Of a DNA stretch of 43,534 bases, positions 3,181-35,788 are shown piece after piece. The stretch is from an uncultured Planctomyces sp. (GTDB lineage Bacteria > Planctomycetota > Planctomycetia > Planctomycetales > Planctomycetaceae). Numbering within the stretch: the stretch's first letter is position 1; the number at the start of each line of letters is the position of its first letter. Position numbers and translations under genes: made by a program. The stretch covers positions 1 to 43,534 of the forward strand of contig CALGTK010000386.1 of the NCBI GenBank assembly GCA_937904325.1. Direction: 5' to 3'. The notes under the pieces were generated by a model that ran no database searches, was not told the origin of the DNA, and worked only from the letters and a program-made list of their open reading frames with translations.

Positions 3181-4140
3181 ATGGATCGCCGAAGTTTTTT
3201 TGCAGCCACTACGACTTGCTTTGCCGGCCAGACGCTCGTTTCGCGGGATGTCGTTGCCGCCCGGAAGACTGAATCGCCAAAAAACTCCGGAGCAAGGATC
3301 AGTAACCCGATTGCACTTTCGACATACTCGTTGTGGCGTTTTCGAAATGAGGCGTTTCGAGACGTTCATCGCTGTATTGAAATTGCATCTGAGTTTGGCT
3401 TTGACGGTGTTGAGTTGCTGCTTTACCAGATTGAACAGAACACTCTGTTGAGTAACTCGGCGATGCAGGAGATTAAACGGCATGCATTCAGGCTGGGACT
3501 GCCGCTGTGCGGGATGTCGACTCATCAGGGGTTTGTGACTCCCGATAAGGAGAAACGCCAACGGAACGTAGATCTCACGATCGGACAGATTGAAACGTGC
3601 TGCCAGTTGGGGATTCCAACAATGCGCGTTAATACCGGACGCTGGGGAACGAGCCGAAACTTCGACGAGCTTATGAAAAATCGTGGTATCGAACCGCCGC
3701 TCGACGGATATACCGACGAAGATGGATATCCGTGGGTAATTGAGAGCTTCGAAAAGTGTCTGCCAACGGCTGAGAAGTGTGGGGTAGTGCTCGGCCTGGA
3801 GAATCACTGGGGACTTGGTCTGACGCCCGAGGGAGTGACTCGGATTGTCGACGCGGTTGATTCTCCGTGGCTTCAAGTAACAGTCGACACGGGAAATTTT
3901 CTGGAAGACCCATACGAGAGGCTTGAACAACTGGCCCCTCGCGCCGCATTCGTTCAGGCCAAGACGTACTACGGGGGCGGGCAATGGTACGAGATTGACA
4001 TCGACTACGACCGAGTGGCAAAAATGCTCCACCGGCACAACTACAAAGGCTGGGTGTCGCTCGAATTCGAAGGCATGGAGGGCTACGAAACGGCCATCCC
4101 GAAAAGCCTCGCACTGCTGAGAAACGCGTTCACTGCATAG
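3181..4140 (+). CDS. Sugar phosphate isomerase/epimerase-like TIM barrel, Tat-exported
   Basis: A 319-residue xylose isomerase-like TIM barrel (AP endonuclease 2 family). The N-terminus MDRRSFFAATTTCFAG is a Tat-type signal, so the mature enzyme is probably periplasmic, as is common for these proteins in planctomycetes. The barrel begins at about residue 43 with NPIALSTYSLWRF. Likely metal ligands are E207 in LGLENHWG, D236 in VTVDTGNF, the region around 257-263 (FVQAKTY) and E295/E297 in WVSLEFEGME. The family isomerises or epimerises sugars and inositols through a divalent metal; the substrate here cannot be read from sequence. The start is supported by AGGA upstream. It stands alone on the plus strand, between a divergent DUF1549 gene and a decayed region. 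Confidence 0.85.
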   Translation: MDRRSFFAATTTCFAGQTLVSRDVVAARKTESPKNSGARISNPIALSTYSLWRFRNEAFRDVHRCIEIASEFGFDGVELLLYQIEQNTLLSNSAMQEIKRHAFRLGLPLCGMSTHQGFVTPDKEKRQRNVDLTIGQIETCCQLGIPTMRVNTGRWGTSRNFDELMKNRGIEPPLDGYTDEDGYPWVIESFEKCLPTAEKCGVVLGLENHWGLGLTPEGVTRIVDAVDSPWLQVTVDTGNFLEDPYERLEQLAPRAAFVQAKTYYGGGQWYEIDIDYDRVAKMLHRHNYKGWVSLEFEGMEGYETAIPKSLALLRNAFTA

Positions 4141-4312
4141 CCTGTCTAAAAGTTCCGCACGATCGCGTCTGAGGATATGGACGCGAAAATCGCAGGCTGC
4201 CACAAGTGCAACGCAGTTCCGGCAGGCTTAGCTCGATGCTCATTTGTTTTACCGAAGCAGCGCTGCGCTCGTTCCAGCCTACCACAGGATTGTACTCCCG
4301 GATGCAGTCGGC

Positions 4313-4344
4313 AGATCTTCTGGATGCTTCGGCGGGGAAGATCT
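4313..4344. repeat. Perfect 8-bp inverted repeat
   Basis: AGATCTTC at 4313-4320 and GAAGATCT at 4337-4344 form a perfect inverted repeat around a 16-base GC-rich loop. It lies between the sugar isomerase-like gene and the PadR pseudogene. No T-run follows on either strand, so it is a poor intrinsic terminator. It may be an operator relic or chance. Confidence 0.3.
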
Positions 4345-4445
4345 GACTTGACACTTAAAACCTCTCAGCACATCACTCCCATACCCCAACCTGAAAGGTG
4401 TTGTAGATTTGCGAGTCACTGCCCTGATGCGGCAGTGTGAATCGT

Positions 4446-4784
4446 ATGCCGATGAAGAAATCGATGTTTGAGGGAAACGTCGAAACGTTCCTGCTGACGA
4501 TCCCCGATTGATCGCCGAACTACGGGTACGAGATCGTTCGGCTGTCAAACGAACAGTCCACTGGCGTGCTGATACCGCTAGACAGCACAGTTTATCCAGT
4601 GTGGCATCGGCTTGAAAAACACAAGCTGATTTCCAGTTTCCGGTAGAAGACCGATAGCGAACGGCAACGCAAGTATTACCGGCTAACGGAAGTCGGAACG
4701 AAACTGCTCTCAGAAAACCGTCAGCAGTGGGCGAGCCTCATACCGAGCGGCTGGATAATCGTCAGTAGAAGATTGAGCGTTTGA
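4446..4784 (+). pseudogene. PadR family transcriptional regulator, pseudogene
   Basis: Read from the ATG at 4446, this frame gives a recognisable PadR winged-helix protein with two in-frame stops, TGA at 4509-4511 and TAG at 4644-4646. Family marks: KKSMFEGNVETFLLTIPD at the start, YGYEIVRLSNEQSTG (normally HGYEI), then STVYPVWHRLEKHKLI (normally GTLYPALHRLE..GLI), and RQRKYYRLTEVGTKLL (normally RRRKYYRLTEAG). Both stops interrupt the conserved core, so no full product can be made without readthrough. The tail after QQWASL loses resemblance to the family and closes at TGA 4782-4784. PadR proteins are small repressors usually placed next to the genes they control; no intact permease or partner follows here, which fits general decay of this segment. 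Confidence 0.8.
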
Positions 4785-4858
4785 AGGCCGAAGGCGTGGC
4801 GACAGAAGACGCCGGCGATGCACAGTCCGTTATGACGACGCTCCCGACTCTGGTTAAC
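4724..4858 (+). pseudogene. Remnant of a small helical hypothetical protein
   Basis: In the frame of 4724, offset from the PadR frame, the translation reads GEPHTERLDNRQ, a TAG stop at 4766-4768, then KIERLKAEGVATEDAGDAQSVMTTL. This resembles small bacterial hypothetical proteins with an R-I-x-R-Q-x-x-I-x-R-L-x-x-x-G-H-D-T pattern followed by A-x-x-L-L. It overlaps the end of the PadR remnant, has no start codon of its own, and loses the resemblance after about 4858. I read it as a truncated, interrupted gene piece. It is short enough that chance similarity remains possible. Confidence 0.35.
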
Positions 4859-5112
4859 ATACCTGCATTTCACATCGGATCTGTAGTTCCCATGCTTGTG
4901 CAACTCAGATGTTCCAACGTGAAAACGATTCGCTAAGCCCGTCAAGATGAGCAGCTTGCGCCGCGATTCGTCTACCTGAGTCAGTAGCCCGATTTTCCAG
5001 ACTCCAATTGCGTTTTCAATGTTTACGAACGCTGCATCCTGCCGGATCGTCTTCCCACGCCAGTGTCGAACCTGCTAGTTTTCACTCATTCTTACATCCA
5101 AGGAGTGATCTG

Positions 5113-5382
5113 ATGAGCGCTACGGAAACTGAATCGACCCCGGAACCACCGTCGAAAGAAGTACTCAAGAAGGCGATGAAAGCCTTCCGAAAAAGGCTGA
5201 AAGTGACTCGTCTGGATGATGAGTCACGCATGGGATACGGCCCGATGAGCGGCGGTAACAAGTCCGGGGTCTGCGCCATCATGCCGCCCAACCAGTACCC
5301 GAAAGAGGTCTGGGAAGAATTGGCCAACCAGGGCCGCCTTCGATACCTTGGCCAGGGCATGTATGAGATGACCGACGGCTAA
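5113..5382 (+). CDS. Small conserved planctomycete protein, unknown function
   Basis: An 89-residue protein. The ATG at 5113 is chosen because AAGGAG sits at 5100-5105 with good spacing; the frame is open further upstream but has no comparable site. The acidic, Pro-rich N-terminus (about 1-18) is followed by a basic helix, KKAMKAFRKRLKVTRLDD. A loop GYGPMSGGNKSGVCAIMPP comes next, then a helix-turn pattern QYPKEVWEELANQGRLRYLGQGMYEM. I recognise the pattern (KAFRKRLK-TRLDxES, then PPNQxPxEVWEELxxQGxLxYxGxGxYE) from proteins widespread in planctomycetes that carry no assigned function. The basic, helical character would suit nucleic-acid or ribosome binding, but that is a guess. No signal peptide is present, so it should be cytoplasmic. 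Confidence 0.85.
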   Translation: MSATETESTPEPPSKEVLKKAMKAFRKRLKVTRLDDESRMGYGPMSGGNKSGVCAIMPPNQYPKEVWEELANQGRLRYLGQGMYEMTDG

Positions 5383-5597
5383 GGTTGCGGACTCCGTCAC
5401 CTGCGGTTCGACAGGCTCGTGGGTAACCAGGCGTACTAACGCCGTTCACAAGTGACGAAGCACATGCTCGATACAAAGCGAGCACAGGAAGTCGGAATAC
5501 TGGCCGCAATATATTCCCAAAACCACGATCGTAGCCTGACAGCTACTGCTCGCCCTTACCCAATTGCAATCGTAATTCCATATCTGAAACGCCAGAA

Positions 5598-7682
5598 CTA
5601 TTTCTCGATTAGATGCTCAAGACGTTTCCCTGCTGCACCACGTGGATCAATGACCGTCAATCTGCCGTCCGGGATCATCGCCCGCAAATCCGGCAGGTCA
5701 TAGTACCGCAAGACCCCATGTACAACGTTTACCAGCTGGCGTTCAGTGACTGGCGTATCAATCACACTCTTCCATGAGTCAAGTCCGCCACTAAGCTTAA
5801 TCTTGCCGAACAGGTCAAGATTAAGAACTGCCACATGCAGAGCCGGCACTGTCAACTCGCCAGTCGCGATGAGATCGACTTTCTTAAATCGCCTCAGCCG
5901 ACCGGACAGCCACCGAGACGCGGCGTAAATTTGATCGGCACGCATACCTACAAACGATTGCCCCAGCATGTAGGCCACGTAGAACTCCGCTGAGTTCGGA
6001 CCAAGCACGCCAGACAATGATCCGTATCGCCAGGGCTTCATTTGAGTCTCACCGCAGCCTGCAACGTCGATGGACAACACTGTTTGCCCCGACTTCACGA
6101 GTCGAACAATCACACCGTCTGTTCCTGCTTCTACCGCCTTCCCTTCATTGTGCAGGTATATCGTTGCCTTGTCAGTGGACTCATTCGGAACGAACAGCAG
6201 CGCAGGCAACTTCAACTCCGCTGATGTCTTTAACACGAATCGCTGTACCTGGTAACCATCCTTCGTGACCGAACTCAATTGCTCGCCTGAAAACTCGCGA
6301 AGATCGACACGTTCTCCAATGCCAGCCAGTTCCTTTATTACGGATCGCCGAATTTCTGCCGACATATTTGCGAATGCAAACTCGTCCCCTGAGCTCGCTC
6401 TCTTCCTGGCAAGTCGGCGTTCCACTTCACGATAGATATCAAAAACCGACTTCGCACCGTCTACCAACAGCGTCTGGCCGCGCGGTGTACATTGCAGCTG
6501 TTCGTCAGAAAACGGCGTCAGGTCTCCCTCAGTAATTGCATCATCCTTACCCAGCAGCCAGCGGCGCATCCAACGAACCATCGCAACTCGCAATTCCTGG
6601 TTGTATCCATGTTTGTCGTCGGTCTCAGCGATGTTGACTCGTTCCGGGAATCCGAGTTTCGCATACACTCGCTTCGCCTGCCGATATGCTATCCACGTAC
6701 CTTCAATCGGAACAAAGTCCTGAGTCGCCGCTAGAATCAACGTCGGTTTCGGAGCCCGCATCAGAAGAAAATCCGGATGATCGATTCCGTACTTAGTCTG
6801 CCCGAAGATGTTTTGCTCAGCATCGCCCGGCCCCGGTCGATCGTTCTTGATTCTCGTCGTCGTGATGAAGTTTCCCGGCGCGGCTGCGACGATTCGTTCG
6901 TCAAGTGCCATCAGAAACGCTGTCTGATTGCCACCGCCGGAACTTCCTGTGCAACCAATTCGGTCCCCAATGATGTCACCACGACTCTGCAGATAATCGA
7001 TACCGCGCATCCCATCCCAGATGAAATACGTGGCAAGGTTCTGACCAAGTAATATGGGGGCCACGCCGGTCACCATGTGCTCGCTGGTTGACTTGAATGG
7101 CGCAAGGTTCACAGGATGAGAGTGTCCTTTCTCATGCAGAATCTGCTTGCGTTCACCCTGCCCGGGCGGATCGAAAATCAACGCAGCACAACCGTTCTTC
7201 GCCAGCAGGATGCAGACCTTCTGGTATGAATCGGCGGCCTTGCCGTTTTCGGTATGCCCGCAGGGAACGAGCACAGCCGGATACGGTGCGTGAGAAACCG
7301 GCAGGTACAAAGTCGCGGTCACCATAAAGCCCGGACGGCTTTCATAGATGATCTTCTCGGCCCGAAAACCATCGCCCGGCAACTTGCCAACCACTCTTGC
7401 ATTCAACGGTGTCCGCTTTGGAAACCCTCCAAGCAACTGACGAAACCGCTTTCTCAGCACCTTCTGCCGTAACAAAATCTGTTCGCGACTTTTCAGCAAT
7501 TTATATTGTTCAATTCGTCGATCCAACGCTTCGTGCGCCAGCGTGCGGAAATGGTTTCGCAGCATATGAGCAACTTCGGGCTGAGTTCGGTCCAGCAGAT
7601 CAAACTCACCAGCCTGGACTGCAAACAGAGGAAAGAATGAGACCGCAATCAATATCAGGGCCGCAGCATTTGATCGCTTCAT
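5598..7682 (-). CDS. Secreted alpha/beta hydrolase, acetyl xylan esterase-like
   Basis: A 694-residue protein with a signal peptide (hydrophobic about 8-23, AVQAG). The first alpha/beta-hydrolase domain, about 95-375, resembles the acetyl xylan esterase/cephalosporin deacetylase group: LYLPVSHAPYPAVLVPCGH, then DPPGQGER, then the nucleophile elbow GCTGSSGGG with Ser at about 248. Asp of AATQDFVP (about 322) and His of DDKHGYN (about 358) complete a plausible triad. The second half (about 390-694) looks like a degenerate second hydrolase domain with its own VAGCGET turn. The start is the ATG at 7682 with AGGAG seven bases upstream; GTG at 7685 is less well spaced. It lies about 48 bp downstream of the beta-propeller gene and is probably co-transcribed. 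Likely role: periplasmic ester cleavage on polysaccharide, inferred. Confidence 0.8.
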   Translation of the reverse strand: MKRSNAAALILIAVSFFPLFAVQAGEFDLLDRTQPEVAHMLRNHFRTLAHEALDRRIEQYKLLKSREQILLRQKVLRKRFRQLLGGFPKRTPLNARVVGKLPGDGFRAEKIIYESRPGFMVTATLYLPVSHAPYPAVLVPCGHTENGKAADSYQKVCILLAKNGCAALIFDPPGQGERKQILHEKGHSHPVNLAPFKSTSEHMVTGVAPILLGQNLATYFIWDGMRGIDYLQSRGDIIGDRIGCTGSSGGGNQTAFLMALDERIVAAAPGNFITTTRIKNDRPGPGDAEQNIFGQTKYGIDHPDFLLMRAPKPTLILAATQDFVPIEGTWIAYRQAKRVYAKLGFPERVNIAETDDKHGYNQELRVAMVRWMRRWLLGKDDAITEGDLTPFSDEQLQCTPRGQTLLVDGAKSVFDIYREVERRLARKRASSGDEFAFANMSAEIRRSVIKELAGIGERVDLREFSGEQLSSVTKDGYQVQRFVLKTSAELKLPALLFVPNESTDKATIYLHNEGKAVEAGTDGVIVRLVKSGQTVLSIDVAGCGETQMKPWRYGSLSGVLGPNSAEFYVAYMLGQSFVGMRADQIYAASRWLSGRLRRFKKVDLIATGELTVPALHVAVLNLDLFGKIKLSGGLDSWKSVIDTPVTERQLVNVVHGVLRYYDLPDLRAMIPDGRLTVIDPRGAAGKRLEHLIEK

Positions 7683-22310: not shown

Positions 22311-23045
22311 ATGAAGCTCAAAAGCCCTCTCCTGACGAAATTTACGGCCTGGCTTCTGGTTCGCGGAATTCAGGCACTTTACCTGACGGTGCGGCGTACC
22401 GAGGTCTCCATTGACGCCGACACCAACCCCTGCCGTCCCAATGTCAAAGGCCGATACCTGTTCTGCACCTGGCACGACACAATCGTCATGCCTCTTTTTC
22501 ATGGACCCCAGATCGCCACCGCTGGAATGGTCAGCGGACATACTGACGGCTCGTTTCTCGCCTTTGCGATGGAGTTTCTGCACATCAAGCCAGTCCGTGG
22601 ATCATCTGGAAAACGAGGCGTCAAAGCTCTGCGCGAAGCGATTACAGTTGTTCAGAATTACCACATCACAATCACACCTGACGGGCCGCGTGGCCCGCGG
22701 CGAGTCATGAAAGACGGAATCATTTTCCTCGCCGCCAAGAGTGGTCGTCCGATCGTCCCATTGGCATATCGAGTTTCGAGTTGCTGGAAGATATCCGGCA
22801 AATGGACCGACCTGGTCATCCCTAAACCGTTTGCAAAAGTCACGGCTTTTCTGGACGAGCCAATTTACGTACCAGAAAACGCGGGACGCGTAGAACTGGA
22901 CGCTCTGACGCAGGAAATTCAGCAGCGTCTAGACGCGATGTACCAGTTGGCCGAAGACAAATCGGCGGATGCCACCTGGCCAATCAGAATTCCGAAAACA
23001 TTCAGAGCAGAAGCTCCCACAGAGAATGCCCAGCGAGCGGCCTGA
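22311..23045 (+). CDS. DUF374 lysophospholipid acyltransferase-like protein
   Basis: A 244-residue protein of the DUF374 group, related to LpxL/PlsC-type acyltransferases. An amphipathic/hydrophobic N-terminus (about 7-28) would anchor it to the inner membrane. Motifs: FCTWHDTIVMPLF at about 51-63 (the HD-type active-site block), GHTDGSFLAFAMEFLHIKPVRGSSGKRG at about 76-103, and ITPDGPRGPRRVMKDGIIFLA at about 121-141. The last two are DUF374 hallmarks and probably shape the acyl-acceptor pocket. In the related LpxL enzymes an acyl chain is passed from acyl-ACP to a lipid A precursor; DUF374 proteins often sit near lipid A genes, but none is visible here. The short length, against about 300 for LpxL, is normal for DUF374. 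Substrate is unproven. Confidence 0.85.
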   Translation: MKLKSPLLTKFTAWLLVRGIQALYLTVRRTEVSIDADTNPCRPNVKGRYLFCTWHDTIVMPLFHGPQIATAGMVSGHTDGSFLAFAMEFLHIKPVRGSSGKRGVKALREAITVVQNYHITITPDGPRGPRRVMKDGIIFLAAKSGRPIVPLAYRVSSCWKISGKWTDLVIPKPFAKVTAFLDEPIYVPENAGRVELDALTQEIQQRLDAMYQLAEDKSADATWPIRIPKTFRAEAPTENAQRAA

Positions 23046-25537: not shown

Positions 25538-28285
25538 TTACTTCCGACGCCAGAATCGTCCCCAGCTCGAAGGTTGTTTGGCTTCAGCCTGCTCGCTCGG
25601 TTCATCAGTACTACGTGGTGATGTCGACAGACTTCCGGAGTCGCTGAAGCCCGAAGTCTGCGGAACCTCTTCGTCCCGAACGTAGTCATCATTGAATATA
25701 GGAATGCGACTCACCGCACTTCCGATGACTGAACTTGATGATTCAACTGAAAACTCGACGGCCTGAATGGGCTCTTCAAATTTGTTTCTTGCGGCCTGAA
25801 TCGATGCTCCGCCTATGAACTGGCTTCCTGATGACGAGTCAGTCGACGGTGCTCTAAACGTTGAACGGACACCCGACCGGCCATCCGATGGCATCGGAGG
25901 AGCTAATTCTTCTGGCCCAAACGGATCACTTGCGGGCAAACGCGGAGCCGAGTCATCATCAGTCGGTGGTGCAGGAACAATCGATCCCTGGGCACCGCTT
26001 TGCGGAATGAGGTCAAGCGTCTTAATCACTGACGTACCTGGTTCGTCAATCACTTCAGGCACGGACTCATCGTAGCTGACACCCAGTCCGCCAGCTTCCG
26101 GTTCAGCAGGGATTAACGCAGAGCGGTTATCAAGTGCTGGCGGAGTTGTCTCTGGGAGTTCCATCGGACCAGGCACAACTGGTGGCAGCGATTCTTCCAT
26201 CGGCATCGCGTTGCGATAGTCAAACGTGCCATTGGCTGTATCGAGACAGTCAATGCAGTCGTCAATAAATTCGCTGGGCGCGGTGACCTTGTTCGGAGAT
26301 TCAAACGCGAAACTTCGTTGCCAGGCACGGCGTAAGGCATCGTCGTACGCGTCTTCAGTCCAAAGGCTCTCCGACAGGTATACGCTGTTGTCCATCAGCA
26401 ACGTACCTTTGCGGTACCGCAGCTCGTTCAGAGCCTGGTTGTAACCGACAAGGCTCGAGTAGTAAGCGATCTCAGCCTGAGCCAGGCTGATTTGTGCTCG
26501 CAGCACCAGATCGACCGTCGAACGACCTACTCTATACTCCGCCTCGAATGCTTCCACTCGACGTTGAGCGGCACGACGGCGGTTGTAGTTCGTTTTCGCG
26601 GTCTGGTAAGACTGATCAAGTTGCTGGAAGGATGCCGCCAGCTCGTAACTGATTTCCTGCTCCTGCTGGGCAAGCAACGCTCGAGCCTTCGAAATCCGAT
26701 GCTCGATATTCTGCATTTGAGTCGTCGCACCACGGAAACCAATCGGCATCGAAAACTCAAAACCAAGTCCCCAGCCAGTATGGTCACCGCTCATCAGCGT
26801 GTCGTAGGCACTGTTAAACCGTCCGTCTCCACCGGTCAACTGGTCACCAAAACCATTTACCTGGTACCGAGCGACGAAATCCAGTCGTGGATTCACAAGA
26901 GCTTCAGCCGCTCCACGCTGCAGTTCGAGACTTTTGATGTTCCATTTCTGGCGGCGAATTTCAGGACGATTAGTTAACGACTCGGCCAGCGAGTTGTTCC
27001 AGTCAGGAAGAATTTGAGCCGTAATCGGATCGTCGCTCGGTCGAATGACTGATCCATCATTCACGGGAAGGCCCATCAGACGTCGCAGTCGAACTTCCTG
27101 AGTGAACAGGTTCGACAAAGCGCCTTCACGTCGTGAGCGAGTTTCAAAGTAGTTGTCGCGGGCCTGGGCTTCGTCAGCCGCTCCAACTTTCCCGGCATCC
27201 ATGTTGGCTCGAACTTCCCGCCACGTCTGCAGGGCGCTCTTAGTCGCCACGGACTCAGCATCGTACGTTCGGTAGGCAAGGTAAAGCTGCCAGTAGGTAT
27301 CTTCAGTATCTTTCAGAAGTTGAGAGACCGAGCCCTCAAATTCCACAAGACTAATGTCTGTTCGAATTCGAGCGATCACAACGCCCTGATTGACTGTAGG
27401 AGTACTCTGAAGCGTTGGTCGACGAGCGATCGGACCAGCAATCCGCGTGTACTCGGTACCGGCTCCTTGCCACAATGGTCGCCGATATTCGAGACCAAGT
27501 GTCGGCAAGCCGCCATCCTGATTGGCACTTGGCCGCGACGCGTACTGACTTCCGAAGAACCGAGCATTGCTGCCTGTCTGGTTGGTGTCTGTGTAAAGCC
27601 AGTTGTGCTCAACAGAGAACGATCCACCGTCGCCGAAAATCTTGCTGATCTCAGCCCGAAAATCTCCGAACTCGTCACGCTGACCGTCAAGAGCCTGAAA
27701 GCCGATTGTGCCACTTTCGGCCGGTTGTTCCGACGCTCCCCAGGTCATGTTGGTCGTAAGTGTCGCGTCAAATTCAGACAAGGCCGCCTGAACACCACCC
27801 TGACCAAATAGCGTGTTGCTTTCCTGAATCGCAACATCATAAATCGACGATGCGAAATCGGGATTGCTCAACAATCGGTTGCCCGGATTCAGGAACGAAG
27901 CGTTGTCGCGGATGACTTCGGCGTTCTGCAATGCATTCCGCAGAACAGCTTCTAATGAGATGTCCTGAATTTCGTCTTTCCGAGGATGCCTGATTCGCCT
28001 GGGCTCCTGACTGCCTGAGACGGCCTTATTCTGCTCCTGAGCAACGTTCGGGTATTCGACCTGCGTGGCCTGATCTTTGTAGTATGAAAGCTCGCGAGCC
28101 TCGCCAATGAGGTACTGCAATTCCTCATTGCCACTAGACAGGCATCCTGTCGTAAGACTTGCTGTGGCAAAAAGTAACGTACATTGAATACGTTTTCGCC
28201 AAGCCCGTGGCAGCCATGCGGCAGGTACGGAAAAAGCAGTGCTCTGAGTATTCACGCTCAAACGTTGGAAACGCCGAAACACCAT
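25538..28285 (-). CDS. TolC-family outer membrane efflux protein with long C-terminal tail
   Basis: A 915-residue exported protein. GAGGA sits seven bases before the ATG. The N-terminus is a long signal ending LLFATASLTTGC, which may be a lipobox with lipidated C48, though the -3 residue is not typical. The TolC/OEP body (about 110-660) has two similar halves rich in long amphipathic helices. These include LKDTEDTYWQLYLAYRTYDA with RLRRLMGLPVNDGS (a typical family motif), and KARALLAQQEQEISYELAASFQQLDQSYQTAKTNYNRRRAAQRRVEAFEAEYRVGRSTVDLVLRAQ with IAYYSSLVGYNQALNELRYRKGTLL. A Pro/Ser/acidic tail of about 220 residues follows, unlike normal TolC. It probably forms a trimeric channel for a tripartite pump or type I secretion, but no pump or adaptor gene lies nearby. 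Confidence 0.88.
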   Translation of the reverse strand: MVFRRFQRLSVNTQSTAFSVPAAWLPRAWRKRIQCTLLFATASLTTGCLSSGNEELQYLIGEARELSYYKDQATQVEYPNVAQEQNKAVSGSQEPRRIRHPRKDEIQDISLEAVLRNALQNAEVIRDNASFLNPGNRLLSNPDFASSIYDVAIQESNTLFGQGGVQAALSEFDATLTTNMTWGASEQPAESGTIGFQALDGQRDEFGDFRAEISKIFGDGGSFSVEHNWLYTDTNQTGSNARFFGSQYASRPSANQDGGLPTLGLEYRRPLWQGAGTEYTRIAGPIARRPTLQSTPTVNQGVVIARIRTDISLVEFEGSVSQLLKDTEDTYWQLYLAYRTYDAESVATKSALQTWREVRANMDAGKVGAADEAQARDNYFETRSRREGALSNLFTQEVRLRRLMGLPVNDGSVIRPSDDPITAQILPDWNNSLAESLTNRPEIRRQKWNIKSLELQRGAAEALVNPRLDFVARYQVNGFGDQLTGGDGRFNSAYDTLMSGDHTGWGLGFEFSMPIGFRGATTQMQNIEHRISKARALLAQQEQEISYELAASFQQLDQSYQTAKTNYNRRRAAQRRVEAFEAEYRVGRSTVDLVLRAQISLAQAEIAYYSSLVGYNQALNELRYRKGTLLMDNSVYLSESLWTEDAYDDALRRAWQRSFAFESPNKVTAPSEFIDDCIDCLDTANGTFDYRNAMPMEESLPPVVPGPMELPETTPPALDNRSALIPAEPEAGGLGVSYDESVPEVIDEPGTSVIKTLDLIPQSGAQGSIVPAPPTDDDSAPRLPASDPFGPEELAPPMPSDGRSGVRSTFRAPSTDSSSGSQFIGGASIQAARNKFEEPIQAVEFSVESSSSVIGSAVSRIPIFNDDYVRDEEVPQTSGFSDSGSLSTSPRSTDEPSEQAEAKQPSSWGRFWRRK

Positions 28286-28654: not shown

Positions 28655-31600
28655 TTATTCCCAGCCGCCGAACTTTTCCCGCCAGCGGTCTGCCATAGCT
28701 GTCAGCGTTGCCTGGTGCGTTTTGTAGTAGATCGCTCCAAAGACCAACGCGATTCCGATCAGCAGGACGATGGAACCAACAGCCGTCATCTGGATACCAC
28801 GTTCCATTCCGGTCAAGACCTTGCCGACAATGGTGACAAGGTCGATCAGCAGCATCGAAAAGCCCAAAGTCAAATAAAGCCGGATACGGAAGAAACTTCC
28901 CAGCCCCATGGCTGCAAGGCAAAGCAGAATCAGGCTGAGATTAAACGCAACCGGGTAACGATCATCGACCAATGCGTAGTACCCGGCACTGCCGAGCATC
29001 GTCATGATCGTGACCAGCCGAATCCGATTTCGAGTGTCTCGATGAATGCGATCACGGAATAACTGCAACATGACCAGCACACCCATTCCGACCGGCACCG
29101 TGTACGCGTACAGAACTCGGAACTCCAGCTTCGACCAGAAGACAATCAAGACGAACGCGACAAAGCCGGCAATCCCAACCAGGTGATACGGTGACTGCCG
29201 GTCATCTTTACCCATGAAGGTAAACATCAGGCTATGCATCCCGACAACCAGCAGCGCCACGTTGGTTCCCAGGTTGTGATAAAGAACCCACACCAGGGCA
29301 ACGACCGGGAGCGTGAATAACGTACCAAGCAGCGGTATCCGAATCTGCTTTGGCTGGAGATCGAACAGTTGCTTGCTACCGGCCAGACCGAAGCTGACAA
29401 CAAGGCTCGCCCACACGTCATATTCGAAATTCCAGAACTCAGTGGTCAGTATAAGGTGTCGACGGATAACTCCGAAAAACGCCAGGATTGATAATTGCAA
29501 CGCTATATACGGAGCCGTGCTCTGCCGCAGTCGCCCTTCGAAGTACCAACCTATAGACAAACCTGCAAACAGACCTGCCGCGAGCATCAGAGTCGGAACC
29601 TCAAACGGCCGGCCGTAGTGCAAGACTTGAGCGACAATGGTGATCGCAAACGTAACCCACAATACAACGCTGTTTGTCATCGCTCCGGAAGTAGCCATCC
29701 AGTGACATGTCTGGTCAAACAGTCTGGGTTGTGCTCGATCAAACTGGTCATAGGTGACGAAAAGTCTTTCCTGAAACACTCGAGCGAATGTCCCCAATGC
29801 GAACAGAGCAGCCGCCGCCATCAGCAGCGGCCAGCTTTGTAAGGCATCGCTAAATCCGGCATCGCGAAGATGTGTCTGACTGAAGAACGTCAGCCAGACC
29901 GGCACCAGCAGAATCATTGCAGCGAGTAGTCGTTCCTCGTTGTTGCAGGCTTTCGATGTCGGGCGCGGCGTCAGCGCAGTCATAACACTGCCAATCGCAA
30001 CCGCCACCAGACCAGTCACCGATTCTGGATGATGCCACAGAACATGGGCGAAGACGAGCCCCGACAGGGTCAGCATGAGCGTGCCCATCTTTGGTAGCGG
30101 AGTGAATCGCAGAGAAATTTGATGAGCAATCAGCAATACAGATTGAGCTGCCAGCACGGCCCAGATGACCTGGCCTTTCGGTAGCCAGCTGGTAACGAAA
30201 AAGTCCATGTGCAAAGCCAGCAACAGTTGCATACCGGCAATCACGAAATACACCGGCAAGCGACGCATGAGTCCGTGGTGAATAAGTACCGACGCACTGC
30301 CAGCCAGAAGTGGAGCCACTAACAAACTGTCGACTCGCCAATCGGTCAGACCCCATAGTACGAGCCCCTGCACAACAATCTGAAGACAAACTCCCCACGA
30401 ACGCCTCAATGCGAACCAATGCGCCTCGTCAATTGCAGCCAATTGTTGAATGACTGTTCGTGCGGGCGACCGATGGGTACTGAAGAGAATCCAGAAATGT
30501 GCGAGTCCAATTCCACACCATGCGGCCGCCATCGGAAAATCAAATGGACTCATCCGAGGCAAAAGCGTCAGAGTGAAATAACTGCCGACCATCAGCGACA
30601 GGCCACCATAGAATGCCAGCCAGGCATTTCCGCCGAGACCATGAAGACGCAACAGAATCAGAGCGACAACCATGACCAGCGGCGCATTGAGATGATAGTA
30701 GTCGGTCTGAATAATCGGCTCATTCGGAAACAGAATCATCTGGAACAGGCCGCGGCAGATGTAAAACGCCAGAATTGTGAAACTCAGAACGGTCGCTGAG
30801 TTTCGGTATCGCCGGCCTGATTCCAGACCGCTGCGGAAGTCAGTTTCTGATCGAAAATAGAACCAGGCGATTGGCAGTCCGAAGGCAAAGATGGCAGTCG
30901 CAGGTTGCCGAAGACCAGGAATCAGCAACGCCGCGCACCAGATCGCCAGCGTCACTCCAAAGTGGTAAAACCCCTCGCACCAATTAACGTATTCCTGTTC
31001 GCCGTCAGCGGGATGGCGTGCGGCTCGTCGACAGTAGCAACCAGCCAGCAACGCCATCAACCCGGAAACAATAAACCGAAACACTGGAATCCGTGCCAGA
31101 TTGGGATGCACAAAGTAATTGGCACTCAACAGCATAAGTACCAGAACGGCTAGAACCAGGCTGGCTCGATTCACATAAGAAGTGATCGTTTCCCGTGCCA
31201 CAATTCGTCGAATGACTGTTGCTTCAAGCAGACTGGCCGCCAGTGCAAGGCAGACAAGATGAATTTCTGACAGTCCGTACCCGCGCAAGTAGTCTCCGCA
31301 GAAGACCCGGATGATGTGAATATTGCCCAGCGTCAATAATGGCGTTCCAATCGCGTAAAACCGGCTGTTCTGCCATGACCAGCCGATAACTGCCAGGGTA
31401 ACGGAGGCCACAAAGGGGGTGACCAGTTGCACGGATTGCTCCCGCAGTTCACCGCTGGACGAGTGATAAACCGTCGCCAACACGGCAAATGCAATGGCTG
31501 GAATAAATACCCAGGCGACATCCGGCATTCTGAAGAACGACACCGGAAATGGTCCCCGTACGATGGCAGGACGACGAACACTTAACAGCCGTCCGGCGTG

Positions 31601-34600
31601 CCCAGCCAAAGCCATCGCCAAAGCCAAGAGGCTCATTCGCCACGGTATTGTCAGAAGTTCCAGCCGCTCACGAATTGAATAACCGTTGCCATCCTGTAGC
31701 TCCAAGTGGCAAACGAGCAAGTAAGTCAGCAAGCACGAAATCAATCCAAGTGGTGCTGACTGATGTGCCCTTGCCGTTACAACGACAGCAGCGATAGCAA
31801 AAACTAACTGGGTGGAGGACAGTTCGACACTGAAGATCGAATCGGTCATCGCTGACACTGCAACCACGACAGTCAGCAAACTGCCAAGGACATTGAAAGG
31901 CCGGAGCAACGGAGCGACCTTGTCATGAATCGCGGGTTTGAACTCCAGGCACATGTGGATAATTTGAACGATCAACAGCAAGCCGATCGTCGGCCAGAAC
32001 GCTCGCGTAACCGACAGCCGAAACAGCAGTGACTGCTCTCCGGGCGTCGTTGCCAGCAAAGCCACCCAGACGAGAAAGAACAACAATCCGCCGAACAATT
32101 GTTGCTTTGTTCGCAACCCGTGCCACACAAGTTGTCCACCGGCAAAAGTCATCAGCGGCAGCAGCGTTGTGACATCCCGCCCACCCAGCAGAGCCAGGAT
32201 ACAAAAACTGCCCGCAATCACGCTGCCAATACTCAGCATGGACCTGGTTGGCGCGACCAGGATCGTCTCAACCCATTCAAATTTAGTTCTCTGCAACGTG
32301 TATGCAAAAAACAGAATCTGCAGAACGATCCCCGTCACGAGCACAGGACCGTACCAGTGAGGATGTTCAGAAAGGTGCCAGTGCCCGCACAGCAGACTGA
32401 TCAGTAGAAACAGCCCGCCAAGGTAAGTTCCGATCAACGATCGCCGATACTCGCGAGCGTAGACCGCTGCCAACGTCCAGCAGACCGAAGTCACACCGAT
32501 CGCGATCGCAGTCTTAAGGCCAATGCCGTCCGCAAACAGATTCTTCAGCAGAACCCACACATCAACTCGTAAAATCAGAAAGACAGCCGAGGCGACCAGC
32601 GGCCACGTAAACAGCTTGTGATCGTAACGCCGAAGAGGAAACAACGTCCGATCGAAAAACCGATCGCCTGCGGACAGATTCTTGAGAAACCCTGCTTCTC
32701 GAAGCGGGAACGACACGACAAGTAACCCAAGCGCGCTGCAGGCACTGCCAAGACCGGTCCCCCAACTGAAATGGTCGAACGTCGCGCGAAAGTTCGATTT
32801 CAACTCGGGAAACAGGATGACTACGATGACCATCGCCATCATGGCCGGAATGAGCGAACGCGAGAAATACGTTGTGGCAACCAGCACGCCAGCCATCAGC
32901 AACGGGCCGAGATAGTCCATCCCGTTGTGCAGCCAGTCCGCACTGCCGGGAACGTCGTGTTCAACAACCACTCGTAACACCATCGCAGCAACTGCTAACG
33001 ATCCGTAAACCCAAAGCACCGTCGAACGAGCACGCAACAACAGACTGGATCGAGTGATCGCCAGGGTTGCCAGCCAGAGAATCGACAACACTGAAAGCCC
33101 GAAGACAAGTGTGTTGCCTTCGAGGCTGCGGCCTTCCATGTCCACACAGCCCAGGTACAACAACGACAGAGCGCACACCGACATTGCTGAATGCACCCAC
33201 CGCAGTTCGTTGTCCCGGAATGCTCGCCAGAAAAACCACGCCACGATGATCAGCAGGCATTCGCCGGTGTGGATCGGGGGAGTTTGAAATCGCCACTGGC
33301 ACAATCCTGCAACGATGGCAGTCAGCATCAACACTGTCACCTGGACGCCGATTGCTGACTGGCTGAACGAATCGTATTTCCGGACCTTGAAGAAGTAATG
33401 CAGGACGCCAAGAATTGCCGCCGCCATTAGTCCCAATGCTGGTAACCACTCCCGTGGAAACTGATCGAGCATGCCGACCGAAGCTACAGCGAGCATCAAA
33501 ATGGTCAGCCCAATCCATTCGTGCACCTTCGACTGACGTCCGACTGCCTGATAAATCCAAATACCGCCCGCCAACGTGAACGATAACACACGAATCTCTG
33601 GCTGAGTGGCTCCCATCAGTGTTCCCATCAGAACCAGCGCAAAGCCCAGGAACGACTCACCGCCAAGTTGTGACTGTCGAAGTGTCAATTCTCGAGCGCG
33701 GCGCTCCGTCAGCAGCACCAGCCACCCGGTCAATATGACCATCGGCGCGTAAGTCCATACGTGCGGAAGGTGCTTTAAGTATGCATGCACCCAGCCAAAA
33801 ACCTGCAGAAACGTAACGACCAGCGTCGCACCAAAGAACCAGGGAACACGCCGACCGTTTGCCATCTCCGGCGTGAGTACGTTTCCTGAAAATCGGATCA
33901 CCGCACCAGCCACCACCATAAAACCGATGTGAAAACCCACACCCATGATGACGTTCAGTTGCTCGCCGCCAACCTCCGCAAACGACTGAGCCACCGGTCC
34001 GAGCATCACCAGACTGTTAAGCAGCAACAACGTTCCACCCAGCAACCAGGTGAGCGATTCGTGAATTCGGCCGCACCACGTCCTCAAGCCCCAGGCCCCA
34101 AGCGATAAATAGACCATTCCAAGAAGCGGAACGACAAGCACTTTCTGCTCCACCTGCTGATCGTTCGACAAAAGTGCGATCGCCATGAAATTGATTGGCA
34201 GCAGTCCGATTGCCGCTCCACGCAGTATCGCTGCTGTGCCTTCGAACTGTTTGTCCTGACGTTCGACCCAGGTGCCCATAGCCCCCAAAGCCCACGTAAA
34301 TGCTGCCAGCAATGTCGGCATGATTGTGTAGCGAACGGCCCAGTGCTTGTCCCACGTGTACCATGCCAAAAGCGAACTCCCGGCAATCACCATCAGTACG
34401 CCCGCCACCATGTACCAGTTCTCGGCGAAGAACGGCTGCACGTGATCGCGCCACACCGATGGCGGTGGTGGCCCGATTAGTTGAGCCGGTTCTGGAGCGG
34501 ACTCCTTTGGAAGTTTTACCGAATACGAGAACGCCGCCGGCTCAACAGCCGGCTGCAAAGACGCAGTTTGCGGGGCCTGCGGAACTTCATCGGCGGGTAC

Positions 34601-35788
34601 TGGTGCCGCCGGGTCTTCCTCGACGAAGTCCCCATCCTCAACGACGTGTACAGCTTCGAGCAGCCCGCTGAGTTCTTCGCCCGGAATGATCATTTCCCAT
34701 CGTTCGGCAAAACGATCAGCATCAATTTCCGGAGCATGAGACTGGCACCAGCTTTCAAGAGCCGACTGGACTGCGGGAGGAATCCCGGATTGTTGTCGAC
34801 ACCAAAAGGTCAGAACTTCCATTGGACTCTGTTGGCCAATCCGACCCAGTTCTTTCTGCTGTCGCTCCAGCTTTCGGCCACTTTGCAGCAGCCAGTTTCT
34901 CCACCCGGACCAGCCAGCAATATTTCGCGAACCAGCACGCAGCGTGAAAATCAATGCCGCACGCTCGCGCTCGTCGTTTGATTGCAAAACATCGACCAGC
35001 CGACAAGCGGCGTTCACGCCAGGCCATGCACAAAGCTCGTCAAGCCATCGATTTCCGTCACCGCTGGTTGCTGATTCCTGATGTCGCAACACGAGTTCAT
35101 CCAGCACAATCTCTTCATCAAGGCTTGCCGGAATTTGTCCTTGCCGGTTGTCGAGTACATCTTTGACAGCGATCTCGTCTGCTTCCCGCTGCAGCTCAAT
35201 GTGAGATTTCAGGCGATCCAACGCGAGAGTCATCTCCGAGTCGTCAACACAATGCGACCTGGCGTGCTTGACTAGCGACAGGACAAAACGACGATCCGAC
35301 GGAAAAAGCGGAGCGTCAGTATCCTGCAGTATTTCTGCCAGCTCTGACTCGAGGGCCGCCGCAGTCCTTGGAGCTTCGTTCTGACGTGCTACTGCGAACC
35401 GGACATCACGGTAGACGGAAAGAGCACTTGCCAGCCGCTTCAAGGGGTGCGTGAGTGTCCTCCACCCCGACTGAACACCCAACGGCAGATCGGCGAGCAA
35501 CGGAAATTGTTCGGTAACTGCTTGAGCCGACGACAGCCGTTGTTCCCGTCGAGCAGCGTGTAGTTGAGCCGCTGCCGAATGACGAGCCGCCTGCACTCGA
35601 GGAACCATAGCGGCAACGCCGGGGTCGCCATGCTGCAGCAATGCCTCGATCAACTCCTCACCATTCAGTGGAGGCGTTGTATCTGCCAACCGTCCTAGAA
35701 CCGGCAGCGAGTATTGCGAGTTCAAAGCACCGTTTGCGGTATAACGTGCAAGTTGATTCAACAGAACGTTGGCATCGATATCCGTCAT
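28655..35788 (-). CDS. Giant polytopic membrane protein, unknown function
   Basis: A 2377-residue single reading frame. Residues 1-390 are soluble and helical with many charged residues (AARREQRLSSAQAV, RLKSHIELQREADEIAVKD). A Pro/Ala/acidic linker covers about 392-443. From about 457 (NWYMVAGVLMVIAGSSLLAWYTW) to about 2355 the chain is almost unbroken hydrophobic segments joined by short, often Arg-rich loops; by eye I estimate 50-60 membrane spans. It ends with a short cytoplasmic tail, ADRWREKFGGWE. The layout recalls DUF2339-type proteins (soluble N-terminus, then a long run of helices), which are much shorter. I see no transporter, glycosyltransferase or protease signature. The ATG at 35788 has only a weak purine-rich site upstream. 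The 7-kb frame has no stop or frameshift, so it is under selection. Confidence 0.8.
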   Translation of the reverse strand: MTDIDANVLLNQLARYTANGALNSQYSLPVLGRLADTTPPLNGEELIEALLQHGDPGVAAMVPRVQAARHSAAAQLHAARREQRLSSAQAVTEQFPLLADLPLGVQSGWRTLTHPLKRLASALSVYRDVRFAVARQNEAPRTAAALESELAEILQDTDAPLFPSDRRFVLSLVKHARSHCVDDSEMTLALDRLKSHIELQREADEIAVKDVLDNRQGQIPASLDEEIVLDELVLRHQESATSGDGNRWLDELCAWPGVNAACRLVDVLQSNDERERAALIFTLRAGSRNIAGWSGWRNWLLQSGRKLERQQKELGRIGQQSPMEVLTFWCRQQSGIPPAVQSALESWCQSHAPEIDADRFAERWEMIIPGEELSGLLEAVHVVEDGDFVEEDPAAPVPADEVPQAPQTASLQPAVEPAAFSYSVKLPKESAPEPAQLIGPPPPSVWRDHVQPFFAENWYMVAGVLMVIAGSSLLAWYTWDKHWAVRYTIMPTLLAAFTWALGAMGTWVERQDKQFEGTAAILRGAAIGLLPINFMAIALLSNDQQVEQKVLVVPLLGMVYLSLGAWGLRTWCGRIHESLTWLLGGTLLLLNSLVMLGPVAQSFAEVGGEQLNVIMGVGFHIGFMVVAGAVIRFSGNVLTPEMANGRRVPWFFGATLVVTFLQVFGWVHAYLKHLPHVWTYAPMVILTGWLVLLTERRARELTLRQSQLGGESFLGFALVLMGTLMGATQPEIRVLSFTLAGGIWIYQAVGRQSKVHEWIGLTILMLAVASVGMLDQFPREWLPALGLMAAAILGVLHYFFKVRKYDSFSQSAIGVQVTVLMLTAIVAGLCQWRFQTPPIHTGECLLIIVAWFFWRAFRDNELRWVHSAMSVCALSLLYLGCVDMEGRSLEGNTLVFGLSVLSILWLATLAITRSSLLLRARSTVLWVYGSLAVAAMVLRVVVEHDVPGSADWLHNGMDYLGPLLMAGVLVATTYFSRSLIPAMMAMVIVVILFPELKSNFRATFDHFSWGTGLGSACSALGLLVVSFPLREAGFLKNLSAGDRFFDRTLFPLRRYDHKLFTWPLVASAVFLILRVDVWVLLKNLFADGIGLKTAIAIGVTSVCWTLAAVYAREYRRSLIGTYLGGLFLLISLLCGHWHLSEHPHWYGPVLVTGIVLQILFFAYTLQRTKFEWVETILVAPTRSMLSIGSVIAGSFCILALLGGRDVTTLLPLMTFAGGQLVWHGLRTKQQLFGGLLFFLVWVALLATTPGEQSLLFRLSVTRAFWPTIGLLLIVQIIHMCLEFKPAIHDKVAPLLRPFNVLGSLLTVVVAVSAMTDSIFSVELSSTQLVFAIAAVVVTARAHQSAPLGLISCLLTYLLVCHLELQDGNGYSIRERLELLTIPWRMSLLALAMALAGHAGRLLSVRRPAIVRGPFPVSFFRMPDVAWVFIPAIAFAVLATVYHSSSGELREQSVQLVTPFVASVTLAVIGWSWQNSRFYAIGTPLLTLGNIHIIRVFCGDYLRGYGLSEIHLVCLALAASLLEATVIRRIVARETITSYVNRASLVLAVLVLMLLSANYFVHPNLARIPVFRFIVSGLMALLAGCYCRRAARHPADGEQEYVNWCEGFYHFGVTLAIWCAALLIPGLRQPATAIFAFGLPIAWFYFRSETDFRSGLESGRRYRNSATVLSFTILAFYICRGLFQMILFPNEPIIQTDYYHLNAPLVMVVALILLRLHGLGGNAWLAFYGGLSLMVGSYFTLTLLPRMSPFDFPMAAAWCGIGLAHFWILFSTHRSPARTVIQQLAAIDEAHWFALRRSWGVCLQIVVQGLVLWGLTDWRVDSLLVAPLLAGSASVLIHHGLMRRLPVYFVIAGMQLLLALHMDFFVTSWLPKGQVIWAVLAAQSVLLIAHQISLRFTPLPKMGTLMLTLSGLVFAHVLWHHPESVTGLVAVAIGSVMTALTPRPTSKACNNEERLLAAMILLVPVWLTFFSQTHLRDAGFSDALQSWPLLMAAAALFALGTFARVFQERLFVTYDQFDRAQPRLFDQTCHWMATSGAMTNSVVLWVTFAITIVAQVLHYGRPFEVPTLMLAAGLFAGLSIGWYFEGRLRQSTAPYIALQLSILAFFGVIRRHLILTTEFWNFEYDVWASLVVSFGLAGSKQLFDLQPKQIRIPLLGTLFTLPVVALVWVLYHNLGTNVALLVVGMHSLMFTFMGKDDRQSPYHLVGIAGFVAFVLIVFWSKLEFRVLYAYTVPVGMGVLVMLQLFRDRIHRDTRNRIRLVTIMTMLGSAGYYALVDDRYPVAFNLSLILLCLAAMGLGSFFRIRLYLTLGFSMLLIDLVTIVGKVLTGMERGIQMTAVGSIVLLIGIALVFGAIYYKTHQATLTAMADRWREKFGGWE

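Follow-up and report, generated by a model that had tools for sequence, protein, structure and literature searches.

A family of giant membrane proteins with 64 predicted spans in planctomycetes and other bacteria

We analysed a 43,534-nucleotide stretch of DNA from an uncultured Planctomyces sp. (the window), whose minus strand carries a gene for a membrane protein of 2377 residues. This giant protein is a member of an undescribed bacterial family whose length is fixed at about 2,350 residues, and is predicted to cross the membrane 64 times in register; both conclusions are well supported, as is the class of protein to which it belongs, while the function that we infer for it is put forward more tentatively. 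Its relationships are best explained if the family forms an outsized branch within a loosely knit superfamily of poly-spanning proteins, which would include an unnamed planctomycete family of ~1250 aa, the SCO7613_CTERM proteins and probably DUF2339/Arc3A. The features discussed below are as follows (window coordinates):

28655..35788, minus strand: whole giant gene, a single open frame of 2377 aa (homologues of constant length; dN/dS)
34619..35788, minus strand: N-terminal helical, soluble, cytoplasmic domain, residues 1-390 (from the model; side from positive-inside parity)
34454..34618, minus strand: Pro/Ala-rich linker, residues 391-445 (from the sequence; modelled as disordered)
28718..34414, minus strand: membrane part, residues 459-2357, with 64 predicted spans (hydropathy, AlphaFold helices, positive-inside register)
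34343..34363, minus strand: conserved motif WYTWDKH (residues 476-482), which follows span 1 and varies little or not at all among family members
32978..34432, minus strand: block of residues 453-937, colinear with the DUF2339 membrane region from its first residue (suggestive profile alignment)
28748..29251, minus strand: C-terminal block with approximate bounds (residues ~2180-2347), equivalent to the SCO7613_CTERM region in homologues and lying within the block that matches the ~1250-aa family

The gene and its family

The gene is open from ATG to stop over 2377 codons with no internal stop, which upholds the uninterrupted 7.1-kb frame described in the initial annotation (where the strand was absent), and it occurs as a single copy in the window's genome. 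Independent assemblies hold the same single frame, with the full gene present in congeneric relatives (87 and 73% identity) and in another genus of the same taxonomic family (46-47% identity). All complete homologues measure 2222-2414 aa, including two at no more than 19 and 22% identity, and pairwise dN/dS lies at 0.12-0.14. Because the same frame recurs in independent assemblies at this length and with such dN/dS values, it is neither a chance frame nor an assembly join. The low dN/dS ratio further supports purifying selection on the gene and, with it, the real role that had been presumed from the intactness of the frame. No support was found for the reading that we are dealing with fused or decaying frames devoid of function; one genome, in which the last ~50 codons are left, does show that the gene can be lost, but the independent frames, their length, the dN/dS values and a topology that stays in register over all 64 spans refute this reading, to which we assign practically no probability.

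The giant protein matched nothing in Pfam (E<=1) or NCBIfam, and no model of these collections covered 15 aligned homologues, apart from sub-threshold matches to SCO7613_CTERM. Likewise, a 16-member family profile found nothing among PDB sequences, in line with the initial impression that no known family or transporter signature is present. A PADLOC scan of the protein gave nothing relevant, promoter and terminator scans at the gene performed no better than on shuffled sequences, and, among the papers searched, none described a single chain with some 64 spans.

Full-length homologues were found in Planctomycetota, in Verrucomicrobiota/Lentisphaerae and in one deltaproteobacterial MAG, and a partial one in an elusimicrobial MAG; a scan of named genomes, which in part repeat those genomes, yielded 17 clear homologous loci over this range (Planctomycetota, Verrucomicrobia, Lentisphaerae and the two single MAGs). 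In profile searches by phylum, which used a 4-row alignment and thus give lower bounds, the family was present in at least 9 of 199 sampled genomes of Planctomycetota, at least 8 of 289 genomes of the verrucomicrobial phylum, counting Lentisphaerae, and at least 1 of 145 genomes of Akkermansiaceae. Read as specific to planctomycetes, the envelope role that had first been suggested is rejected on this distribution, as the family extends to Verrucomicrobia, Lentisphaerae, Deltaproteobacteria and Elusimicrobia and occurs in a few percent of planctomycete genomes. In a tree of the homologues many sequences clustered by phylum and others were intermixed, a pattern that fits a family of old age that has often been lost and may at times have been transferred. 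On one contig (L013:2290-2445, G025:C56) the last ~50 codons of the gene lie behind unrelated sequence, with no further remnant of it found on that contig, and apparently represent what is left after a deletion.

Domain layout and membrane topology

The overall layout, with a soluble and helical N-terminus (residues 1-390) followed by a Pro-rich linker and an otherwise hydrophobic chain, agrees with what was initially read from the sequence. The N-terminal domain is the least conserved part of the protein (17-29% identity to homologues outside the genus) and has no match in Pfam, and the linker region was modelled with a pLDDT of ~31-42 over roughly residues 381-480. In one homologue (L031:5869-6000) we noted a possible N-terminal extension with a CPHC...CPTC zinc-ribbon-like motif.

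Alignment-averaged hydropathy shows 64 peaks, and combining the helices of two AlphaFold models with hydropathy gave 64 cores, which were chosen without regard to charge; this set includes an added hydropathy peak at 2203-2220 that the second model missed and leaves out one short polar helix. The protein is thus a membrane protein as annotated, with a span number a little above the 50-60 first given. Connections on the side of the N-terminal domain carry on average 2.79 lysine and arginine residues, compared with 1.07 on the other side (p=8e-8), and this positive-inside signal keeps the same phase through all four quarters of the chain. As a miscount early in the chain would flip the phase later on, the 64-span register is well supported, and since the phase holds along the whole chain, both the N-terminal domain and the C-terminal tail are placed in the cytoplasm. 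Conserved polar residues in or near the spans include R523, N533, R939, N1489, R1571, R1714, H1764, H1860 and R2109.

Relation to other poly-spanning membrane proteins

The strongest relative in profile-profile comparisons (hhalign without MAC realignment) was the unnamed planctomycete membrane family of ~1250 aa. It matched the giant family over the C-terminal ~350 columns (P 4e-11 to 5e-15) and, in the same order, over the first membrane block (P 9e-6), while reversed profiles gave nothing and block-shuffled ones reached at best P 0.0015. These alignments show the two families to be related and colinear at both ends. Their C-termini also end alike, with W as the penultimate residue, whereas the smaller proteins have about half the length of the giant ones and are without the ~390-residue N-terminal domain and roughly 700 residues in the middle of the membrane part. 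The ~1250-aa family (L011:2365-6177 and L062-L070) is widespread in planctomycetes, and the members tested had no Pfam match.

The C-terminal ~165 residues are also where the giant family resembles membrane proteins with the SCO7613 C-terminal domain, with all matches falling below the model's cut-off. Two giant homologues, L020 and L037, matched SCO7613_CTERM (NF047321) over this region at 3.3e-9 and 3.3e-5, and the C-terminus of the ~1250-aa protein L011 did so, again sub-threshold, at 6.9e-7. The best score in the giant family was 36.7 bits (L020) against a cut-off of 45 bits, which none of its members reaches, and the window protein itself gave no match to the model at all. Deletion of SCO7613 affects PHA storage (PMC8313934).

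The initial annotation had likened the layout to DUF2339-type proteins, a likeness that finds weak but better-than-control support in profile comparison and none in Pfam. DUF2339 aligned with the giant family over 435 columns, starting from its first membrane residue, with P 9e-5 for residues 440-1060 and P 1e-3 for the whole membrane part, compared with P 0.016-0.15 for reversed and block-shuffled controls. This suggests a distant relationship to DUF2339/Arc3A that is not significant by usual standards. PF10101 matched neither the window protein (E<=1) nor 16 family members; in the window's genome it found solely a different gene, on contig C119 (L071, about 3878-7014), where a canonical DUF2339 gene is followed by a DUF3999 gene in an Arc3A/Arc3B-like pair. 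This DUF3999 gene (PF13163), the sole one found in the genome, adjoins the canonical DUF2339 gene and not the giant one. As a canonical DUF2339-DUF3999 pair and a DUF2157 gene are separately present in this genome, the giant protein is a protein apart. Against the 855-codon frame of the canonical DUF2339 protein, the earlier estimate of two to three times the length of such proteins proved accurate. The tie to DUF2157 comes from L034, a cyanobacterial relative of residues 401-537 that weakly matches PF09925 (2.3e-4), whereas the members of the giant family tested had no match to PF09925 at E<=1 and the genome's DUF2157 gene is a separate one.

DUF2339 proteins correspond to Arc3A of Pseudomonas aeruginosa, which has ~35 spans and no residues indicative of catalysis, prevents the build-up of lysophospholipids and associates with Arc3B (DUF3999); in many bacteria, aas genes are neighbours of arc3 genes (PMC8926400). 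Defence against lysophospholipids and phospholipase toxins is the role ascribed to Arc3A/DUF2339, whose protection against lipases has been confirmed (PMC12663445). Like Arc3A, the giant protein combines a soluble N-terminal part, a linker and a long run of membrane helices with no enzyme signature, the first membrane helix is where the alignment begins in either family, and aas and lplT adjoin one giant homologue, as is often seen with arc3 genes. It differs from Arc3A (PA5114) in having 64 rather than 35 predicted spans, no PF10101 match and no neighbouring DUF3999 (Arc3B) gene.

Gene neighbourhoods

The giant homologue of an Akkermansiaceae genome (CAIKHZ010000012.1, L033:2381-15409) lies in a cluster that looks like a phospholipid-repair operon, with aas, an lplT-like MFS gene, the giant gene, a PlsC acyltransferase gene and a PAP2 phosphatase gene on one strand and gaps of 4, 39 and 87 bases. 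The aas assignment has an E-value of 6e-215, and the lplT-like gene matches LplT-Aas fusions at 1e-85 and LplT at 8e-35. By a rough estimate of ours, the probability that an aas-lplT pair would adjoin the gene by chance in about 26 loci is a few percent. The aas/lplT genes were absent from the window and from about two dozen other neighbourhoods, most of which, like the window, had nothing relevant next to the giant gene, and no neighbour was conserved among these beyond the closest relative; the lipid operon is for this reason the evidence of one lineage.

A few further neighbours are worth recording. In L025, a PlsB-like acyltransferase gene is the divergent neighbour of the giant homologue (gap 21). 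Downstream of the giant gene in the window, after 370 bases, lies a minus-strand gene (25538-28285) for a TolC-like outer membrane protein of 915 aa that has a long additional N-terminal part; conservation of this adjacent gene, which the initial annotation had raised, holds for the closest relative (87% identity) and not elsewhere, and we rejected it as an operon partner because it is common to that relative only. The DUF374 protein encoded at window 22311-23045 (plus strand) belongs to an acyltransferase-like family; its gene is 5.6 kb from the giant gene, and no evidence links the two. At L111:13980-16751, 893 bases downstream of a homologue and on the opposite (minus) strand, a protein with no match in NCBIfam carries a GGGLRSA motif as in patatin-type phospholipases.

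Predicted fold

AlphaFold models were built for residues 1-1200 from 15 sequences (mean pLDDT 75, pTM 0.49) and for residues 1178-2377 from 14 sequences (mean pLDDT 72, pTM 0.47), with residues ~2200-2377 poorly modelled. Both lay out consecutive antiparallel hairpins in an alpha-solenoid-like manner, at low global confidence (pTM 0.47-0.49). The best structure matches, those of Foldseek included, were circular tandem repeats and TPR/HEAT helical solenoids: a circular tandem repeat protein led for the first half (Z 14.7 over 425/456 residues), and the same type of protein was best for the second half (Z 11.2). Because the Z of 14.7 sits near the stated background for helical repeat proteins, we retain the hairpin layout only, and as a hypothesis. 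No known transporter fold was among the best structure matches, an absence that does not count as evidence against one, given the low confidence of the models.

The idea that a helical unit had been duplicated was not borne out, as comparing the membrane part third against third gave matches no better than those of controls (hhalign, P 0.007-0.5). A weak self-match within the last third (residues ~1823-2018 versus 2069-2257) had a raw P of 1.4e-4.

Possible function

By analogy with Arc3A, we tentatively propose, as the most likely of the roles considered though one that falls short of even chances, that the giant protein is an Arc3A-like inner-membrane protein that handles lysophospholipids or damaged lipids. 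Its ~64 helices would pack as consecutive antiparallel hairpins into an extended, curving wall within the bilayer. This wall may bind or corral lysophospholipids or other damaged lipids and so stop their accumulation, and captured lipids might then pass on to turnover or to re-acylation by LplT/Aas, in line with speculation about Arc3A. From this proposed capture and hand-over would follow a role in repairing membrane damage of the phospholipase type or in defending against it. Speaking for the proposal are the ties to the ~1250-aa, SCO7613_CTERM and DUF2339 proteins, the lipid genes beside the L033 and L025 homologues and the solenoid-like structure matches. Against it stand the failure of PF10101 and PF09925 to match, a DUF2339 link below usual significance, the location of Arc3B elsewhere, the lipid operon being found in one lineage, models of low pTM built from 14-15 sequences and a best Z near background. 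A bolder form, in which the chain would be an alpha-solenoid of hairpins within the bilayer, forming an arc or ring round a patch of lipid so as to trap and process lysophospholipids or other damaged lipids, and hence a new architecture, strikes us as quite unlikely.

The same wall of 64 helices could instead organise or stiffen the cytoplasmic membrane as a corral, domain boundary or source of curvature, with no specific lipid involved and with the N-terminal domain recruiting cytoplasmic partners. A large solenoid-like membrane part with a soluble domain, the constant length and the lack of a conserved partner gene in most genomes would suit such a scaffold, but many strictly conserved polar residues in or near spans (for example those listed above, N1489 aside) suggest a specific ligand or chemistry, and a patchy distribution of a few percent ill fits a core structural role; we hold it to be somewhat unlikely. 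Conserved arginines and histidines within spans, together with the L033 operon of LplT, acyltransferases and PAP2, would also be consistent with a transporter or scramblase of novel fold for a lipid or polyprenol-linked substrate, in which these buried residues line a path for anionic head groups. This we judge unlikely, as the structure matches (of low-confidence models) include no transporter fold, Pfam finds no ATPase or other energy-coupling domain, and no ATPase partner is conserved alongside.

Very many spans serve force sensing in Piezo, and a membrane array that senses tension or lipid packing and signals through its cytoplasmic helical N-terminal domain, tied to the membrane part by a flexible linker, has this precedent. 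That domain, however, is the least conserved part of the protein, and neither a signalling domain nor a match to a pore module was found, which makes an envelope or mechanical sensor very improbable.

Significance

Because its length is constant across several phyla, the giant protein is a real biological object, and one for which there is no family model. The family is best seen as a giant branch, hitherto undescribed, of poly-spanning Arc3A/SCO7613-like proteins. Should the solenoid-like packing prove right, the fold would be an unusual one for a membrane protein. If the link to Arc3A holds, the giant family would broaden a little-understood form of bacterial membrane self-protection to PVC bacteria and may provide a second and far larger system for studying how lysophospholipids are handled by poly-spanning proteins.
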